A DNA stretch of 64,000 bases. Origin: Stutzerimonas stutzeri. Lineage in GTDB: Bacteria > Pseudomonadota > Gammaproteobacteria > Pseudomonadales > Pseudomonadaceae. The stretch lies in NCBI RefSeq assembly GCF_000219605.1, contig NC_015740.1, positions 1,674,001 through 1,738,000 on the forward strand, in the 5' to 3' direction. Below, one piece after another: positions 1-13,126 of this stretch (positions are counted from its first letter, which is position 1; each line of letters opens with the position of its first letter). The position numbers and the translations under genes were made by a program. A model generated the notes under the pieces. It had not been told where the DNA came from. It saw only the letters and a program-made list of their open reading frames with translations, and ran no database searches.

Positions 1-554
1 AGCGTGACCTGTGCTTCCCCGGCCAGCGGATGGCCGACCGGCACCGCCAGCAGCAGGCGGTCGGTGCTGAAGTGCAATACCTGCAGCCCTTCGGCCTGCA
101 CCGGGCCCGCGATGATGCCCATGTCGGTGCTGCCGTCCAGCACGCCACGCACGATGTCGCGGCTCAGCCGTTCCTGCAGGTCCACCGTGACGCCGGGGCG
201 CTCGGCGAGAAATCCGGCCAGCACCTCCGGGAGGAATTCGGTTACGGCCGTGGTATTGGCGAAGATGCGGATGTGACCGGCCGAGTCGGTGCCGTATTCG
301 GCGAACTCGCTTTTCAGATAGTCCACCTGGCGCATGATCAGCCGCGCATGCTGCAGCAGCTTGTGGCCGGCCGGCGTCAGCTCCACTCCGCGGCTGTCGC
401 GGTAGAGCAGGCGGCTGTCGAACTGGGCTTCCAGCGCCTTGATGCGTGCACTGGCGGCTGCCGGTGAGAGGTGCGCGCGGCGCGCGCCCTGGGTCAGGCT
501 GGGGGACTCGGCGATATGGATGAACAGGCGCAGATCGGCCAGATCGAAATGCAT
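1..554 (-). CDS. LysR-family regulator of the itaconate-type operon (partial, 3' end outside window)
   Basis: The minus frame starts with MHFDLADLRLFIHIAE at 554 and stays open to the window edge (about 184 residues visible). The N-terminus is a winged helix-turn-helix typical of LysR proteins (SLTQGARRAHLSPAAASARI, then the LTPAG element), followed by the start of the effector domain. It is divergent from the hydratase gene at 678, the classic layout of a LysR regulator and its target operon. In P. aeruginosa a LysR gene occupies the same place beside the itaconate genes. It resembles the second LysR at 14512, including a shared GVELTPAGH segment. The C-terminus cannot be judged. Confidence 0.9.
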   Translation of the reverse strand, partial: MHFDLADLRLFIHIAESPSLTQGARRAHLSPAAASARIKALEAQFDSRLLYRDSRGVELTPAGHKLLQHARLIMRQVDYLKSEFAEYGTDSAGHIRIFANTTAVTEFLPEVLAGFLAERPGVTVDLQERLSRDIVRGVLDGSTDMGIIAGPVQAEGLQVLHFSTDRLLLAVPVGHPLAGEAQVT

Positions 555-677
555 GAGGCGCCTCGGCTTGGGTCGGGCGTTCAGCTTAGCCGAACGACGG
601 TGTCGGTAAATACAAATTCTCGGAACGCTGGCTTCGTAGCATCCTGCGGCAAAACAAGACAACAGCGGAACCCGACG
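555..677. promoter_or_regulatory. Divergent lysR / catabolic operon intergenic region with a LysR-box-like dyad
   Basis: This 123 bp gap separates two divergent genes. At about 580-594 lies TTCAGCTTAGCCGAA, a T-N11-A dyad close to the TTCG-N7-CGAA element seen three times in the second module (14420, 14483, 15447). It is a plausible LysR binding site. No clear -35/-10 pair was assigned. Confidence 0.4.
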
Positions 678-1499
678 ATGACCGATACCTCTGCCTGGAT
701 TGGCCGCAGCGAAGAAGTCCACGACCAGCTCAGCCGCAACCTGCTGATGCGCATTGCCGCGACCTTCGGTGAAAGCACTCCCGCCCATGGCGAAGCGCTG
801 CCGCCTTTGTGGCAATGGTGCTTCTTCCAGGACCCGATTGCCGAAAACGGGCTGGGCGAGGACGGCCACCCGGCGCGCGGTGGCTTCCTCCCGTCGGCGG
901 ACAACCGCAACCGCATGTGGGCCGGTGGCCGCGTCGAATTCTTCCGCCCGCTGGAAGCGGGTGGCGAGGCCCGGCGGGTATCGACCATCAAGCACATCGA
1001 GGAGAAGCATGGCCGCACCGGTGCGTTGCTGTTCGTCACCGTGCAACACGACTACCTGCAGGACGGCCGCCTGGCCATCCGCGAGGAGCAGGACATCGTC
1101 TACCGCGAGCCGAGCCCGCCGAAGACCAGCAGTGGCGAACCCATGGTCGCCGGTGGCTGGCGCGAGGCGGTCACACCGACGCCGACGTTGCTGTTCCGTT
1201 ATTCGGCGGTCACCTTCAACGGCCATCGCATCCATTACGACTGGCCCTACGTCACCGAGACCGAAGGCTATGCCGGCCTGGTCGTTCACGGCCCGCTGAT
1301 CGCCACGCTCAACCTGCGCGCCTTCTGCCGCGCCAATCCCGACGCCCGCCTGCGCCGCTTCGCCTACCGCGGCCTGCGCCCGCTGATCGCGCCGCAGCCG
1401 TTCGAGGTCGGCGGCCGCATCGTCGCACCGGGCAAGGCCGAACTCTGGGCCGGCGACCACAACGGCCTGGCGCAAAGGGCTGAAGTGGAGTTCGAGTGA
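678..1499 (+). CDS. ich: MaoC/FAS1-like dehydratase, probable itaconyl-CoA (mesaconyl-C4-CoA) hydratase
   Basis: The product has 273 residues starting MTDTSAWIGRSEEVHD; the upstream extension of the frame is non-coding leader. It is a double hot-dog hydratase: the second half carries FNGHRIHYD and a following VVHGPL, the active-site pattern of the HTD2/mesaconyl-C4-CoA hydratase type. In the itaconate pathway this enzyme hydrates itaconyl-CoA to (S)-citramalyl-CoA. It is the first gene of a plus-strand operon holding a CoA-transferase and a CitE-type lyase, which supply the steps before and after it. The position matches ich in P. aeruginosa. Substrate is inferred from context and family. Confidence 0.8.
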   Translation: MTDTSAWIGRSEEVHDQLSRNLLMRIAATFGESTPAHGEALPPLWQWCFFQDPIAENGLGEDGHPARGGFLPSADNRNRMWAGGRVEFFRPLEAGGEARRVSTIKHIEEKHGRTGALLFVTVQHDYLQDGRLAIREEQDIVYREPSPPKTSSGEPMVAGGWREAVTPTPTLLFRYSAVTFNGHRIHYDWPYVTETEGYAGLVVHGPLIATLNLRAFCRANPDARLRRFAYRGLRPLIAPQPFEVGGRIVAPGKAELWAGDHNGLAQRAEVEFE

Positions 1500-8100: not shown

Positions 8101-8991
8101 ATGAGTCGTTACGCCACGGTCAGCACACCCGTGCTGGATATCGCTTATCTCGAATGGAACCCCCGCGGCCAGCAGGTGGCCGTGCTCGTGCACGGCTGGC
8201 CGGATTGCCCCGAAGGCTGGGAGCCCGTAGCCGAGCGCCTGGCCGCAGCGGGCTATCGCGTGCTCTGCCCGACGCTGCGCGGCTTCGGCCAGACACGCTT
8301 TCGCGACGCGCTGACCCCACGTAGCGGTCAGCTCACCGCGCTGGGGCGCGACCTGCTGGATTTCATCGACGCATTGCGCCTCGACCAGCCGGTGCTGGTC
8401 GGCCATGACTGGGGCGCGCGGGCGGTGGCCAATGCCTGCGGGCTGCGCCATCACGCCGCCGCACGGCTGGTAATGCTCGCGGTGGGCTACGGCACCAATG
8501 ACCCGAACCAGCACATCTCGCTCAGCCAGACGCGCAACTACTGGTACCACTGGTACATGGCCACCCCGCGCGGCGAGCAGACGGTAGTCGAGGATCGCGC
8601 GGCCTTCACGCGGCTGCTGTGGGATACCTGGTCACCCGCCGGCTGGTACGCCGAGGCGGATTTCGTCCAGGCGCTGGAGGCGTTCGACAACCCGGACTGG
8701 GCCGCCGTGGTACTGCATTCCTATCGCCACCGCTGGGGCTTCGTCGACGGCGATCCTGCCTATGCATCGGACGAGGCGTTGCTGCAACCGGCCCCGGTGC
8801 TCGCCGTGCCGACGCTGGTGCTGCACGGCGAGGCCGATACCTGCAACGCACCGGAAACCTCGGCCGGGCGTGAGGCCTTGTTCAGCGGCCCATACCACCG
8901 ACAGCTATTGCCAGGCGTCGGCCACTTCCCTCAGCGCGAGGCGCCACAGGCAGTAGCCGAGGCGATCCTACAGTTCTGTCAGGGGGATTGA
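8101..8991 (+). CDS. Alpha/beta hydrolase, epoxide hydrolase-like
   Basis: The product has 296 residues, starting MSRYATVSTPVLDIAYLE; AAGGAG just upstream supports this ATG over the earlier in-frame one. Seen motifs: oxyanion HGWPD, nucleophile elbow VGHDWGARA with Asp in place of Ser (typical of epoxide hydrolases and dehalogenases), and catalytic His in LLPGVGHFPQRE. It probably acts on a soluble cytoplasmic substrate; which one is unknown. It is separated from the operon by a terminator, so it is likely its own transcript. Confidence 0.75.
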   Translation: MSRYATVSTPVLDIAYLEWNPRGQQVAVLVHGWPDCPEGWEPVAERLAAAGYRVLCPTLRGFGQTRFRDALTPRSGQLTALGRDLLDFIDALRLDQPVLVGHDWGARAVANACGLRHHAAARLVMLAVGYGTNDPNQHISLSQTRNYWYHWYMATPRGEQTVVEDRAAFTRLLWDTWSPAGWYAEADFVQALEAFDNPDWAAVVLHSYRHRWGFVDGDPAYASDEALLQPAPVLAVPTLVLHGEADTCNAPETSAGREALFSGPYHRQLLPGVGHFPQREAPQAVAEAILQFCQGD

Positions 8992-9330
8992 GCCGTTGCT
9001 ACATGTTGCAGGCGGCGAGACCTAACCGTTTCTCTGGCCTGCAGTGGTTGGTTTTTCTAGGGGCCTGCCGCTTGTGCTTGCCAATTTTTGTTGCGGCTCT
9101 ACACGGCATGGAATCTGGAAGCCTTATCGACACGGCAATGGTGGAGCGTGTGCGGTAGCTCGCAGGCGAGGCAATGTTTGATGACATCAATTTCACGCTT
9201 CCCAGAGCTGGTGTATAAACACCCGTCGTCGCTGAGAGGCCCGAGCTAGAGGCTCGGAGAGAGTGGCGAACGGAATGTTATACACCAAACCCGTTCGGCG
9301 CCTTATACACCACTTGGTGTCTAATTATAG
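8992..9330. other. Left flank of the integron array, no gene seen
   Basis: About 340 bases without a convincing gene. No integron integrase is seen on either strand; the only open frame (8999-9196, minus) has no recognisable content. The right half holds an attC-like dyad (9210-9286), further TTATACACC copies, and a small palindrome ACACCACTTGGTGT (9307-9320). The first cassette starts immediately after base 9330. Confidence 0.5.
9210..9286. repeat. attC-like imperfect dyad of a different type
   Basis: The left end GGTGTATAAAC and right end GTTATACACC are complementary except for one extra A. An internal hairpin CCGAGC-TAGAG-GCTCGG sits in the middle. The layout (terminal complementary boxes, about 77 bp, internal hairpin, GTT end) is that of an attC site, but the sequence is unlike the three clear sites downstream. 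TTATACACC is repeated directly at about 9303. Confidence 0.35.
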
Positions 9331-9893
9331 TTAGAGGTGCAAGTTGAAAGCACTGGAGAAATGGGCAGAGCGTATATACGCCGAGACAGATGCGGGGCGA
9401 AGCATCGCAACATCTGTTGCCGGCATCGTTGGTTTGTCGGTTTATCTTTTGACATTGGATTGGGTTATTGCCGCCTTTTCAGCAGTTATTGCGTTCCCGC
9501 TAGTTCGGCTAATAGCAACTGGGCTTCATGCAAGCGCAGTAAGGCGGGCACAAAGTCGTGAAGAGCTAGAAGAAGCAAAGAGAATTTATTCCCGCTTGAG
9601 TACACACGAGAAATCTGTAGTGCAAGCCTTTGTACAGTCCGGCGGCTCAGTTCTCACTTGGAGCCAAGTAAATAAGCTAGGTCTATCAGGCAATGCTATC
9701 GAGTCACTTATCCAGCGAGAGGTCGCTTGGACATCAACGACCTCGGATGGCATGCGCGAAACATTTGCTCTAGATTCAGCAATATTTGATGTAGGGCAAA
9801 AGCATTCGGCCAGTGGTAGCAACCTCTAACAACTGGTTCAAACCGTTCGCTTCGCTCACTGGGACGGGCTAAAGCCCGCCCCTTAACCAAACG
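9331..9893 (+). mobile_element. Integron gene cassette 1
   Basis: It starts TTAGAGG directly after a G (9330) and ends inside attC1, whose left arm reads CCTCTAAC. This is the exact reverse complement of G+TTAGAGG, as required when a cassette closes into a circle. It holds one gene in the standard orientation. Confidence 0.9.
9344..9829 (+). CDS. Cassette-encoded two-helix membrane protein
   Basis: The product has 161 residues from a TTG start 13 bases into the cassette, a usual place for cassette genes. Two adjacent hydrophobic helices (about residues 20-40 and 41-60) are followed by a charged helix and a C-terminal soluble domain with helix-turn-helix-like spacing (LSTHEKSVVQAFVQSGGS, LGLSGNAIESLIQREV). 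The stop codon lies inside attC1. The layout recalls SieB-type superinfection exclusion proteins, but this is a resemblance in architecture only. Codon use is AT-richer than the flanking genes. Confidence 0.65.
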   Translation: MKALEKWAERIYAETDAGRSIATSVAGIVGLSVYLLTLDWVIAAFSAVIAFPLVRLIATGLHASAVRRAQSREELEEAKRIYSRLSTHEKSVVQAFVQSGGSVLTWSQVNKLGLSGNAIESLIQREVAWTSTTSDGMRETFALDSAIFDVGQKHSASGSNL

Positions 9894-9899
9894 TTAGGC
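9824..9899. other. attC1 recombination site
   Basis: The left box CTCTAAC and the right box GTTAGGC (9893-9899) flank a 60-base imperfect dyad containing AACTGGTTCAAACCG and CCTTAACCAAACGTTAG. The central stem GCGGGCTTTAGCCCG-type is shared with attC2 and attC3. It is like known P. stutzeri chromosomal integron attC sites. Confidence 0.9.
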
Positions 9900-10596
9900 A
9901 TCGGAGAAGTTTATGCCTGGATCCCCTCGAATCGATAAAGGCGAAGGCTTTATTCGTACCTATGAGCTTCTGCAAGCCCTTCGAGGAGACATTGATCAGG
10001 CCTACGCAAATCTGGAGGTAGACCGAGAGTCCCAGTTCCTTCGGCGCTGTGTTGTTCGAGCAATTTTCTCCTACATTGAAGCAATAGCCGAATGCGTAAA
10101 GGTTGAAATCCGATCAACCATTAGGGCTGGCGTTTATTCTGGAAAACTCACCCCAAAGGAGCAAGAAACTCTGGGATCGCTGTTAATTGTTGGAGCCGAG
10201 CCAGGAAAATTCTTGCCGCTAGACCAAAATATAAAGAGAACATTTAAACTCGCAGCAAAGGTCTGGGATTTAAGCTATCGGCTTTCAACGGACGGCGAAG
10301 ATTTTAGAGATTTCTTGTCCGCAAAATCAGCTCGCAACAAACTTACTCACCCTCGCACTTTTTACGACATCGAAGTTAACGATTACGACATGCACTGCCA
10401 CACAGTTGCGGGAGTGTGGGCGCAAAATGAGTTTCAGAGGCTCTTTCAAGAAAGGGTTAAATCTATTGTAAGTAATCTGCCTGAAGATATGCGTGAAGCT
10501 TTTTTAAATAGAGTTGGCGGCGCCGATGCCTAACAACTGGTTCAAACCGTCGCTTCGCTCACTGGGACGGGCTAAAGCCCGCCCCTTAACCAAACG
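9894..10596 (+). mobile_element. Integron gene cassette 2
   Basis: It begins TTAGGCATC and its attC2 left arm reads GATGCCTAAC, the exact reverse complement of G+TTAGGCATC. One gene is present in the cassette direction. Confidence 0.92.
9913..10533 (+). CDS. Cassette-encoded HEPN-like protein
   Basis: The product has 206 residues, predicted all-helical and soluble, with no signal peptide. Near residue 140 it has SAKSARNKLTHPRTFYDIEV, containing R-N-x3-H (R-x4-H), the catalytic motif of HEPN-domain RNases, in the expected place towards the C-terminal helix. Helices with conserved-looking charged residues (RAIFSYIEAIAECVKVEIR) precede it. HEPN proteins act as toxins and as nuclease effectors in phage defence; whether this one cuts RNA is unknown. 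The stop codon lies inside attC2. A. T-rich composition differs from the host genes. Confidence 0.7.
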   Translation: MPGSPRIDKGEGFIRTYELLQALRGDIDQAYANLEVDRESQFLRRCVVRAIFSYIEAIAECVKVEIRSTIRAGVYSGKLTPKEQETLGSLLIVGAEPGKFLPLDQNIKRTFKLAAKVWDLSYRLSTDGEDFRDFLSAKSARNKLTHPRTFYDIEVNDYDMHCHTVAGVWAQNEFQRLFQERVKSIVSNLPEDMREAFLNRVGGADA

Positions 10597-10602
10597 TTAT
10601 AA
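10528..10602. other. attC2 recombination site
   Basis: Left box GCCTAAC, right box GTTATAA (10596-10602). The core is identical to attC1 except for a one-base deletion in the TTCGCTTCGC stretch. Confidence 0.9.
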
Positions 10603-11508
10603 ACATGAATCCAAACATACCCTTCAACGTCAACACTGTATATCTAGTCACAAGCTCTAGACCGGGAGAAGAAGGAATAACTCGCCGCTTAGTTGAGAGC
10701 ATAAGCGACACCTCTAGTAATGGAGGCGACTTTAATTTTTTGCACGCACGAATAAATAGTGGCGACGGATACTTTCAGCTACTAGAGGAAATATTTTACG
10801 AAATTGATAAGGGGCTTAGGCCAATTATCCACTTTGACATGCACGGATCCCAAGAGCGGGGTTTAGAAATTGGTAAAACTGGAGAGTTTATTGACTGGGG
10901 ATCAGTCATTGATAGTCTTAGGATTTTAAACACCAAGCTTAATAACGAGCTGGTTGTTTTAATGACGGCGTTTCATGGCCTTCATGCAATCCTGCCAATT
11001 AGTTTTGAGAAAGTCGCTCCATTTTTGTGCCTAATAGCACCCGAGCAAGAAATAAAAATTGGGCATATTGAAGACCGAGTTCCAGAATTTTATCGCGAGC
11101 TGTTTTCCTCAGGCTCATTAGCTCACGCATGCCAAAAGCTCGGGAGTGAGTTTAACTATTTTCATAGCGCAGAGTTTCTCTTCAGAACCCTAACCAGATA
11201 TATCAAGGAAAAATGCAAAGGCGCTGGCGGGCAAAAAAGAAGAGAGGATTTACTTACTGAAATAATGGAGACTCGGCTAGGAGAGGAGCCTGAGAAAATT
11301 TCAGAATACAGAACAAAAGTTAAGCAACATGTTGCACCAAATCAAGAGCTACTAGATCGCTATACCAGTCGCTTCTTAATGGGAAAAGCTTCAGGCATAA
11401 AAATCGATGAACTACTCACAGAGATCGAGAAGTCATATTTATAACAACTGGTTCAAATCGTTCGCTTCGCTCACTGGGACGGGCTAAAGCCCGCCCCTTA
11501 ACCAAACG
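10597..11508 (+). mobile_element. Integron gene cassette 3
   Basis: It begins TTATAAACATG and its attC3 left arm reads TTTATAAC, the reverse complement of G+TTATAAA. The start codon of the gene is only eight bases from the cassette end. Confidence 0.92.
10605..11444 (+). CDS. Cassette-encoded CHAT/caspase-like protein with a substituted catalytic Cys
   Basis: The product has 279 residues. The first half looks like a caspase-fold CHAT domain: a short beta strand TVYLVTSSRPGEEG, helix, then PIIHFDMHGSQERGLEIG (catalytic His strand, HG motif), FIDWGSVIDSLRILN, and strand ELVVLMTAFHGLHAIL, where CHAT proteases carry the catalytic Cys (usually A-C-x-G). Here that place is Phe (TTT, one base from TGT). 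APFLCLIAPEQEIKIG follows, as in the family. The C-terminal half is helical and lysine-rich. CHAT proteases are effectors in several defence systems; this copy may be inactive or a scaffold. The stop codon lies inside attC3. Confidence 0.6.
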   Translation: MNPNIPFNVNTVYLVTSSRPGEEGITRRLVESISDTSSNGGDFNFLHARINSGDGYFQLLEEIFYEIDKGLRPIIHFDMHGSQERGLEIGKTGEFIDWGSVIDSLRILNTKLNNELVVLMTAFHGLHAILPISFEKVAPFLCLIAPEQEIKIGHIEDRVPEFYRELFSSGSLAHACQKLGSEFNYFHSAEFLFRTLTRYIKEKCKGAGGQKRREDLLTEIMETRLGEEPEKISEYRTKVKQHVAPNQELLDRYTSRFLMGKASGIKIDELLTEIEKSYL

Positions 11509-11514
11509 TTAGGT
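11439..11514. other. attC3 recombination site
   Basis: Left box TTATAAC, right box GTTAGGT (11508-11514). The core differs from attC1 by a single substitution (CAAATCG for CAAACCG). Confidence 0.9.
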
Positions 11515-11860
11515 GCTTCAATTGTGCGAAAGCTATTAGAGGCTGACAGCCTGGTTCAGGTAAATCTTATGGCAAGCTACCTGCAAAGCAGCGGCATTGC
11601 CACAAGGTTAATTAATTAATGAATATCAAGGCTCTGTTCGTTCAATTGTTTCTTTTCATAGACCAATACGCCCTGAGCTTTGGGTGCCCTCTGAAAAATT
11701 TGAAACAGCTGCCAGATTAGTTGGGCGCTATCAGTATGAACAAGAATCAAATAATTCAGGCGTTGAAGTCGAATGGTTGTGTAAAAATTGCAAGGAAAGC
11801 AATCCTGATAATTTCATGTCTTGCTGGAATTGCGGTGGGTCGAAATGAGCCTGCACCCTG
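11509..11860 (+). mobile_element. Degenerate fourth integron cassette without an intact attC
   Basis: It begins TTAGGTGC as expected after attC3, with a gene start 15 bases in. No downstream GCACCTAAC box or attC core is present. GCACCCTGG at about 11855 could be a decayed remnant, but the match is short. The right end is therefore uncertain. Confidence 0.5.
11524..11848 (+). pseudogene. DUF2007-like (putative signal-transducing protein) gene, frameshifted
   Basis: A GTG start gives MRKLLEADSLVQVNLMASYL, the start of the DUF2007 fold, but stops at 11617 in a TTAATTAATTAA run (11608-11619). Removing one TTAA restores one frame of 106 residues: LINEYQGSVRSI, then PELWVPSEKFETAARLV (typical DUF2007 end) and a C-terminal zinc ribbon CKNCKES...CWNCGG ending at the TGA 11846. 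So a 4-base tandem duplication broke the gene. The intact product would be a small cytoplasmic protein of unknown role. Confidence 0.75.
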
Positions 11861-12094
11861 GCTAGTTTGTAGTTCGTGCAGCAGGGGCCAAGCATTCAAA
11901 CGATCACAGAGATAATCATTGTCTTATCGGCCTTGTTCTGCTGTAGGTCTCGCCTGTTCCGACAGTATTGCTTCACAACAAGAACCATCAGCTCATTGTT
12001 CAATCCTGCCGTAAGGGGCGGCCTTGCGTTGTGCCAGTTCCGGCTTAAACACCGCTCATGCCACCACACCGTCCAACAGGCGCTCCACATGCGG
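11849..12094. other. Right flank of the cassette array, no gene seen
   Basis: About 245 bases between the cassette remnant and the stop of the lyase gene. Composition returns gradually to the host average. No attC, IS end or terminator with a T-run was found. Confidence 0.45.
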
Positions 12095-13030
12095 TCAAAC
12101 GCCGGCTTCCTGCATCCACTTCGGCTTCGCATAACGACGATCGGCCTTGCCGGCCTTGAGCACGGCGCCCGGTACGTCGTGGCCGACCAGTTGGGGCAGG
12201 TCGGCGGCGCATTGCAGCAGACGGTCGAGATCGACGCCGGTGTTCAGGCCCATGCGCTGGAACATATGCACGAGATCTTCGGTGCAGATATTGCCGCTGG
12301 CGCCGGGCGCGTAAGGGCAGCCGCCGAGTCCGCCGAGCGAGGCGTCGAAGCGGTCGATGCCGGCGTTCAGCGCTGCCAGCGCGTTGGCCAGGCCCATGCC
12401 GCGGGTGTTGTGGAAGTGTGCGGTGAATACTGCCTGCGGCCAGCTGTTCAGCACTTCGCGGCAGATGCGCTCGACCTGCGCCGGGTCGGCCATGCCGGTG
12501 GTGTCGCAGAGCGTGATGCCCTGCACGCCGATCTCCAGCAGGCGTTGCACCAGCTCATAGATGCGCCGCTCGGGCACGTCGCCCTCGAAGGGGCAGCCGA
12601 AGGTGGTCGATAGCGAGGCGTTGATGAACACGCCACTGCCGCGAGTGACTTCGATGATTTCGCGGAACTGCACCAGCGACTGCTCAGGCGTCATGCGCAG
12701 GTTGGCCAGGCCGTGGGTGTCGCTGGCCGACATCACCAGGTTGATCTCGTCCACCTCGCAGGCCAGCGCGCGCTCGCAGCCCTTCACGTTGGGCACCAGC
12801 ACGGTGTACTCGACGCCCTCCGCACGGCGGATGCCGCGCATCACGTCCTCGGCGTCGCGCAGGTTGGGGATGGCCTTGGACGAGGTGAAGGAGGTGACCT
12901 CTATCTTCGCCAGCCCGGTTTGCGAGAGACGGTCGATCAGGGCGATCTTGGCTTCGGTTGGCACGAAGTCCGCTTCGATCTGGAAGCCGTCGCGGGTGGC
13001 GACTTCCTGGATATACAGGCGTTTGCTCAT
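12095..13030 (-). CDS. HMG-CoA lyase-family enzyme, candidate (R)-citramalyl-CoA lyase
   Basis: The product has 311 residues, starting MSKRLYIQEVATRDGFQIEA at 13030. The TIM-barrel HMGL features are present: RDGFQIE metal/substrate motif, FTAHFHNTRGMG metal-binding histidines, and GGLGGCPYAPGASGN with the catalytic Cys. The N-terminal motif (EVATRDGFQ) and TSFTSSKAIPNLRD differ from true HMG-CoA lyases (EVGPRDGLQ, TSFVSPKW). With the class III CoA-transferase at 13133 it matches the transferase/lyase pair used for (R)-citramalate in Chloroflexus. It could instead act on HMG-CoA. It is probably co-transcribed with the transferase. Confidence 0.75.
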   Translation of the reverse strand: MSKRLYIQEVATRDGFQIEADFVPTEAKIALIDRLSQTGLAKIEVTSFTSSKAIPNLRDAEDVMRGIRRAEGVEYTVLVPNVKGCERALACEVDEINLVMSASDTHGLANLRMTPEQSLVQFREIIEVTRGSGVFINASLSTTFGCPFEGDVPERRIYELVQRLLEIGVQGITLCDTTGMADPAQVERICREVLNSWPQAVFTAHFHNTRGMGLANALAALNAGIDRFDASLGGLGGCPYAPGASGNICTEDLVHMFQRMGLNTGVDLDRLLQCAADLPQLVGHDVPGAVLKAGKADRRYAKPKWMQEAGV

Positions 13031-13047
13031 GGGGAGTCCTGGGGTTT

Positions 13048-13126
13048 CGTAGGGTGGATGATGCTCTGCCCATCCACCGTTGTGGCTTGCTGGCTGGTGG
13101 ACAAGCTTCGCCTTGTCCACCCTGCG
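13048..13126. repeat. REP-like double-hairpin repeat, copy 3
   Basis: The ends are CGTAGGGTGG and CCACCCTGCG. Hairpins GGTGGATG...CATCCACC and GGTGGACAAG-CTTCG-CCTTGTCCACC lie inside. It sits between the CoA-transferase and lyase genes. Confidence 0.75.

Follow-up and report, generated by a model that had tools for sequence, protein, structure and literature searches.

A Probable Satellite Integron Platform in Stutzerimonas stutzeri: attI and Three attC Cassettes in a Genome without Detected intI

Introduction

A chromosomal integron of Pseudomonas stutzeri populations was reportedly described by Holmes et al. in 2003, and the attC sites treated here are of a type which we take to be that of this integron. 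Another closely related system is found in Xanthomonas, whose CALINs, arrays of attC sites without a nearby integrase, occupy recurrent chromosomal positions, and their mobilisation in trans is stated in the available parts of the literature (PMC12444791; also PMC9668308). The array discussed here fits the CALIN definition and differs from it by an attI site kept at a conserved locus. It lies in the window, that is, the whole analysed stretch of 64,000 nucleotides, which corresponds to G000:C1:1674001-1738000 of the complete 4.55-Mb chromosome of Stutzerimonas stutzeri; positions without a contig label are those of the window. Judged from the sequences of the locus and its relatives, it is probably a satellite integron platform, consisting of attI and three attC cassettes in a genome in which no intI was found, and its cassettes were likely inserted in trans.

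Cassettes and attC Sites

Three cassettes, all in one direction and each closed by an attC site, lie between an alpha/beta-hydrolase gene (8101-8991, plus strand) and a hydroxymethylglutaryl-CoA lyase family gene (12095-13120, minus strand). The hydrolase gene, the left neighbour, is 95-99% identical in named Stutzerimonas relatives, where its orthologues have either the leader described below or an empty site behind them. Covariance-model attC sites together with complementary ends delimit cassette 1 (9331-9893), cassette 2 (9894-10596) and cassette 3 (10597-11508), all on the plus strand, as are attC 1 (9826-9897, 104.1 bits, E 9.2e-31), attC 2 (10530-10600, 92.6 bits, E 4.8e-27) and attC 3 (11441-11512, 101.7 bits, E 5.6e-30). 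The model was built from 25 attC sites, all from other genomes. The complementary cassette ends are TTAGAGG/CCTCTAAC, TTAGGCATC/GATGCCTAAC and TTATAAA/TTTATAAC, the TAA stops (9827-9829, 10531-10533 and 11442-11444) are inside the attC left boxes, and the three attC cores are one deletion or one substitution apart in the model alignments.

An earlier, sequence-only reading of this DNA had proposed three tandem cassettes of the P. stutzeri type with complementary ends, cores one substitution or deletion apart and a TAA stop in each left box, and had named covariance-model scores as a check. The coordinates and the anatomy hold: the sites score 93-104 bits, the cores differ as proposed in the model alignments, the stops are so placed at all three genes, and the model from other genomes confirms the cassettes as genuine. 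The three tandem attC cassettes are real, far beyond chance, and chance resemblance as their source is ruled out by the E values in the window (9e-31, 5e-27 and 6e-30), which match all three sites strongly. In addition, single-strand folding of the attC bottom strands gave z values of -2.7, -1.9 and -2.4, which are supportive, not decisive, and a search of the window against Rfam gave no family at gathering scores. The same covariance model found four attC sites in the whole 4.55-Mb genome, the fourth at C1:4456655-4456725, and the next-best match had an E of 1.3. Measured against the CALIN criterion of at least two attC sites with no integrase nearby, the array has three and no intI.

Behind the third cassette there is a remnant of a fourth (11509-11855, plus strand) with a DUF2007 gene; its reading frame is interrupted here but open in the relative L018. 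The remnant is found also in G019, and no attC was found behind it in the window. The array ends with a truncated IS110/IS1111-type element (11856-12079, minus strand), a 224-bp remnant which was identified through a longer copy in the relative L208 (Pfam PF02371 and PF01548). Terminal repeats of a transposable unit were also considered and none was established, the right-hand repeat being this remnant. L208 itself, near the array sequence of G032, has an open reading frame at 40-1194 (minus strand) that by eye is pyocin-type-like.

Search for an Integrase

The sequence-only reading saw no integrase in the window, which was borne out, and a search of the complete 4.55-Mb genome with the TIGR02249 profile likewise found no integron integrase above the cut-off. 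Six sub-threshold matches were located within four tyrosine recombinases, which by NCBIfam are XerD, XerC and two others that lie below every listed cut-off; this profile search thus revealed no integrase hidden elsewhere in the genome. Seventeen other genomes keep intI at what is called here the home locus, and this place was located in the present genome via a neighbour gene. In 8 kb at the home locus of this genome, there was no match better than E 2.1 for intI, E 0.67 for attI or E 2.4 for attC. Among the components of a complete integron, the attC cassettes are present in this genome and intI was not found.

The attI Docking Site

Sequence comparison defined a conserved leader (8992-9208, plus strand) and, to its right, an attI site (9209-9334, plus strand), which was recognized by homology to intI-linked attI and whose function is putative. 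Because 9209-9334 is an attI homologue, the array can be regarded as an integron platform without an integrase. Thus the description "cluster of attC sites lacking an integrase" stands as far as the intI-less attC array is concerned and falls short in that the array also keeps its attI. The site comprises, all on the plus strand, an upstream inverted copy of the repeat, TGGTGTATAAAC (9209-9220), the direct repeats GTTATACACCA (9278-9288) and CTTATACACCA (9302-9312), a further element TTGGTGTCTAA (9314-9324) and the crossover GTTAG (9330-9334), with the junction between G9330 and T9331, at which identity drops in the alignment. Over the 63 bases of 9272-9334, identity to the attI adjoining intI in L133/L134 is 95%. 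In relatives, the stretch from intI to the first cassette holds the same elements in the same order, and this order is readable, with substitutions, in 36 aligned sites. At the sequence level, homology and element order consequently supply the attI component of a complete integron. Since the repeats of attI sites in general bind IntI, those described here are presumed to be putative integrase-binding sites. As for a cassette promoter Pc, there is one weak sigma-70-like match (9304-9331) against a mean of 0.3 in shuffles. At 0.89, the attI core is not more strongly conserved than the leader, whose best stretch reaches at most 0.90, so selection on attI is not shown by these values.

The insertion point also bears on the view that the cassettes entered a non-attI chromosomal site of the attG type, with the attC cluster made from scratch. 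Insertion of cassettes at attG is mentioned in the available parts of PMC12901181 and PMC12444791, but here the point of insertion is homologous to attI, carries the elements found in intI-linked sites and is not an attG, which makes such an entry very improbable.

Part of the leader, from about 9027-9062, recurs together with attI at other loci (L191, L197, L217 and L227). At these loci the leader and attI, of about 300 bp, are 72-75% identical, as if a docking module had been copied. Furthermore, in L023 (S. kunmingensis DSM 25974, about 11100-11230) the attI-like end consists of apparent short tandem copies of TATGCACCGACTGGTGCCTAATATAGC.

Cassette Genes

Cassette 1 carries a gene with a TTG start for a SieB-like membrane protein of 161 aa (9344-9829, plus strand). 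This protein matches SieB (PF14163) at 19.9 bits, under the gathering cut-off of 26, and across its family E values up to 0.1 were obtained for 24 of the 25 aligned members, the best being 5.4e-6. Its sole match in NCBIfam was a sub-threshold one to SLATT, and a sequence search gave no solved structure. The HEPN-like protein of cassette 2 (206 aa; 9913-10533, plus strand) has the motif of HEPN proteins, R-x4-6-H, in the form R-x4-H, with R141 and H146 invariant in all 34 aligned sequences; Pfam gave nothing convincing and Foldseek no match at E 0.001. The protein of cassette 3 (279 aa; 10605-11444, plus strand) has a CHAT/caspase-like fold. It matches no Pfam family, and the 29 aligned sequences gave only two stray single-member matches. 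CHAT/caspase-like proteases use a catalytic pair of His and Cys. His80 is invariant (29/29), and at position 123 all 28 aligned relatives have Cys but the window copy has Phe, so that its pair is incomplete.

None of the three proteins matched the PADLOC defence library. The SieB-like, HEPN-like and CHAT/caspase-like cargo is predicted to act, probably, in phage defence, and phage defence in integrons is said to be the subject of reports from 2025.

History of the Locus

In 14 of the 56 genus genomes, the hydrolase gene is followed by an intI-less platform, and the lyase gene is on the far side in 12 of them, the sequence ending first in G018 and G032. Among the 19 named hydrolase loci (L015-L033), 12 have the leader or part of it (L021 just 41 bp, before an IS) and six have hydrolase and lyase without the leader, that is, no insert; L031 has no lyase match nearby. 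Loci and genomes overlap (for example, L017 is G029), so the two counts are not additive. In a flank-gene tree of 13 named loci and the window, with midpoint rooting, the eight filled loci fall together with one change, which would mean that the platform was gained once, but the branch concerned has weak support (52/7).

What stands behind the docking site is variable. In an alignment of 13 of the 14 platform genomes (G018 was left out, as its contig ends 128 bp past attI), the hydrolase end had a mean column identity of 0.92, the leader one of 0.86 and the attI core one of 0.89; for bases 4-60 past the attI core the value was 0.24. In finer windows the mean was 0.92 in the 30 nucleotides up to GTTA and 0.29 and 0.22 in the next two windows of 30 nucleotides, a collapse at the attI crossover that arises because the cassettes differ. 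There are 12 different first-cassette starts among the 14 genomes, while the flanks are 90.5-98.7% identical across the 91 genome pairs. With a sharing threshold of at least 150 bp, G004 and G005 have the first cassette in common (G005 holding more cassettes), G006 and G008 have one cassette in common, and G016 and G054 share the whole array at 96%; the other segments in common among the 91 pairs, judged by where they lie, belong to the IS element, to the final attC together with the IS remnant, or to the distal remnant. The present genome and G019 have flanks 97.4% identical, and the common part is only the distal remnant and a piece of the IS. The comparison of related strains for an empty site, proposed in the earlier reading, thus yielded six named loci without insert and variable cassettes, and the outcome set there against its own claim, the same three genes fixed in every relative, did not occur. 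The attC cassettes are genuinely of the P. stutzeri type; the array is, however, hardly a stray one-time piece, with the platform in 14 of 56 genomes and mostly other cassettes in it.

Such variability could also result if strains exchanged entire arrays through homologous recombination between their conserved flanks, with no integrase acting here. The leader and the flank genes offer long homology for this, and the array of G016 and G054, at 96%, is more alike than their flanks at just 92.3%; therefore, some arrays have moved by other routes than an integrase. Homologous exchange, however, would often end elsewhere in the flanks, whereas identity in the 13 genomes stays near 0.9 until the crossover and drops there, and donor arrays would still need building at an attI. 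As a general account, array swapping is thus quite improbable. Loading of cassettes in trans is regarded as likely because the docking site is shared by relatives that have other genes behind it.

attI, attC and intI in the Genus and the Family

Among the 56 genus genomes, attC matches at E up to 1e-6 were found in 49 and intI matches at E up to 1e-60 in 32, 29 of which are over the curated cut-off. The attI query gave 59 places in 36 genomes. The 59 sites inspected are these places minus a contig-end fragment that adjoins intI (G055:C25) and plus a weaker site in G029; a second attI query also matched G009 and G047, both outside the inspected set. An adjoining intI was seen at 19 of the 59 sites, and the other 40 are intI-less, one of which (L228) has just 129 bp of left sequence. 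Downstream attC sites were present at 34 of these 40, and of the remaining six, four are no farther than about 700 bp from the end of a contig. The number of attC sites in intI-less arrays did not differ between genomes with intact intI (11 sites) and without it (24 sites; Mann-Whitney p 0.42).

The same few fixed chromosomal places carry intI-less sites in different genomes: the one behind the hydrolase gene, the region described next and a few more. A second recurrent region is beside a PAS-kinase or LysR-type gene (names given by eye) and includes the second site of the present genome, L013, an intI-less attI and attC locus on the same chromosome (C1:4456655-4458572, minus strand). This locus contains a first cassette open reading frame, a transposase gene (IS5-like by eye), one attC and, behind it, a further open reading frame of 221 aa, and it adjoins a LysR-type gene. 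A "locus B" of 18 sites, grouped by 4-kb left flanks, was not retained as one group, pairwise comparison having revealed the grouping as chained: G012, G049 and G055 show matches of only 66-79% to one another or to the remaining sites and are probably part of other loci. In G030 (C1:768234-769073) and G038 (C1:2049231-2049962), the intI of the home locus has in-frame stops, with arrays and satellites still present.

In the family, attI-like matches occur in 59 of 248 genomes and in 8 of 19 genera. Twenty-two of these 59 genomes are outside the genus and have 22 matches of at least 50 bases; for four of these, an intI match lies no more than 0.7 kb away on the same contig. G064, G086, G112 and G194, from other Pseudomonadaceae genera, have two or three attI-like sites each, most without a detected adjoining intI.

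Cassette Traffic and Loading in Trans

Three satellite arrays begin with a cassette that is found elsewhere from the crossover on. The first cassette of the G049 satellite is identical to an internal cassette of the intI-bearing home array of G041 (245/245 bases to the contig end, from the crossover), that of the G032 satellite is 85% identical over 372 bases to the home array of G049, also from the crossover, and that of the G036 satellite is 94.8% identical over 423 bases to the intI-less array of G005, the match beginning at the crossover save one mismatch in the first five bases. None of the three is at the window's own locus, although one partner, G005, is. Many other shared segments, same-genome ones included, fit the length and position of the IS element and were not counted. 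Loading in trans is favoured because these junction-sharing cassettes sit in genomes (G049, G032 and G036) each of which has an intact intI at the home locus.

Intact intI is absent today in 11 of the 14 genomes with the platform of the window. Of the three that have it, G032 alone carries it at the home locus; the intI of G005 has no attI or attC match within 1.5 kb, and that of G021 is of another, lower-scoring type. Therefore, activity in trans at this locus would be mostly historical. The lack of a difference in attC number between genomes with and without intact intI and the unexceptional conservation of the attI core likewise speak against loading in trans.

The absence of intact intI in these 11 genomes would also be expected of an ordinary relic, that is, if the locus once had its own intI, which was deleted in the common ancestor, and the present arrays arose by differential cassette loss. 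Decay of intI does occur in the genus: the genes of G030 and G038 contain in-frame stops, several further genomes have partial matches, and in G002:C4 the left flank matches the home locus and the attI-proximal sequence is still intI-like by eye. On the other hand, tblastn at E up to 1 found no trace of intI to the left of the intI-less attI sites, that of the window included, and one ancestral array could hardly supply the 12 first-cassette starts, with few shared cassettes at such flank identity. A relic of this kind is hence unlikely.

For loading in trans, the following course can be envisaged. The platform would be acted on by an integron integrase whose gene lay elsewhere on the chromosome or belonged to a previous host; the enzyme would have been supplied by the home locus, as long as intI persisted in the lineage, or from outside. 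IntI would bind attI and recombine it with the attC of free circular cassettes, so that the newest cassette would be next to attI. The platform in this strain is probably frozen now. More tentatively, and with slightly less than even confidence, Stutzerimonas and perhaps other Pseudomonadaceae may have a distributed integron, in which one home integrase would serve several intI-less attI stations at fixed sites, and the stations might outlive the integrase, refill in trans from a shared pool and duplicate as small attI modules.

Significance and Comparison with Known Systems

In the available parts of the open-access literature (PMC12444791, PMC9229058, PMC12901181, PMC4405911, PMC7923331, PMC12690207, PMC9668308 and PMC11551772), no description of intI-less attI at conserved loci was found. 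According to the part of its methods that is available, one survey was restricted to few known attI types (PMC7923331), and surveys so restricted would miss intI-less arrays that bear attI. Arrays without intI are defined by attC alone, and many of them may carry attI, as 40 intI-less sites among 59 suggest; if so, they would be extra landing sites fillable by an integrase in the cell. The locus is, moreover, a directly testable case of an integron acting in trans from fixed satellite sites, and it shows that cassettes likely to serve phage defence turn over at places other than the intI locus.

The platform resembles several known systems, each in part. With the attG insertions it has in common chromosomal cassettes away from intI, but the target here is an attI homologue. 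An IS110/IS1111-type element follows an attC-left-box-like sequence in several relatives, as in IS1111-attC elements, whereas here only the 224-bp remnant is present. Like the CALINs, it is an attC array without a nearby integrase; their definition, however, covers attC and intI only, and this platform has in addition a docking site of its own in the attI of the genus integron. Finally, the platform resembles the P. stutzeri chromosomal integron in its types of attC and attI, which according to sequence searches are those of Stutzerimonas arrays that bear intI. The intI of that integron is either at the home locus (17 genomes) or absent, whereas here attI stands without intI.
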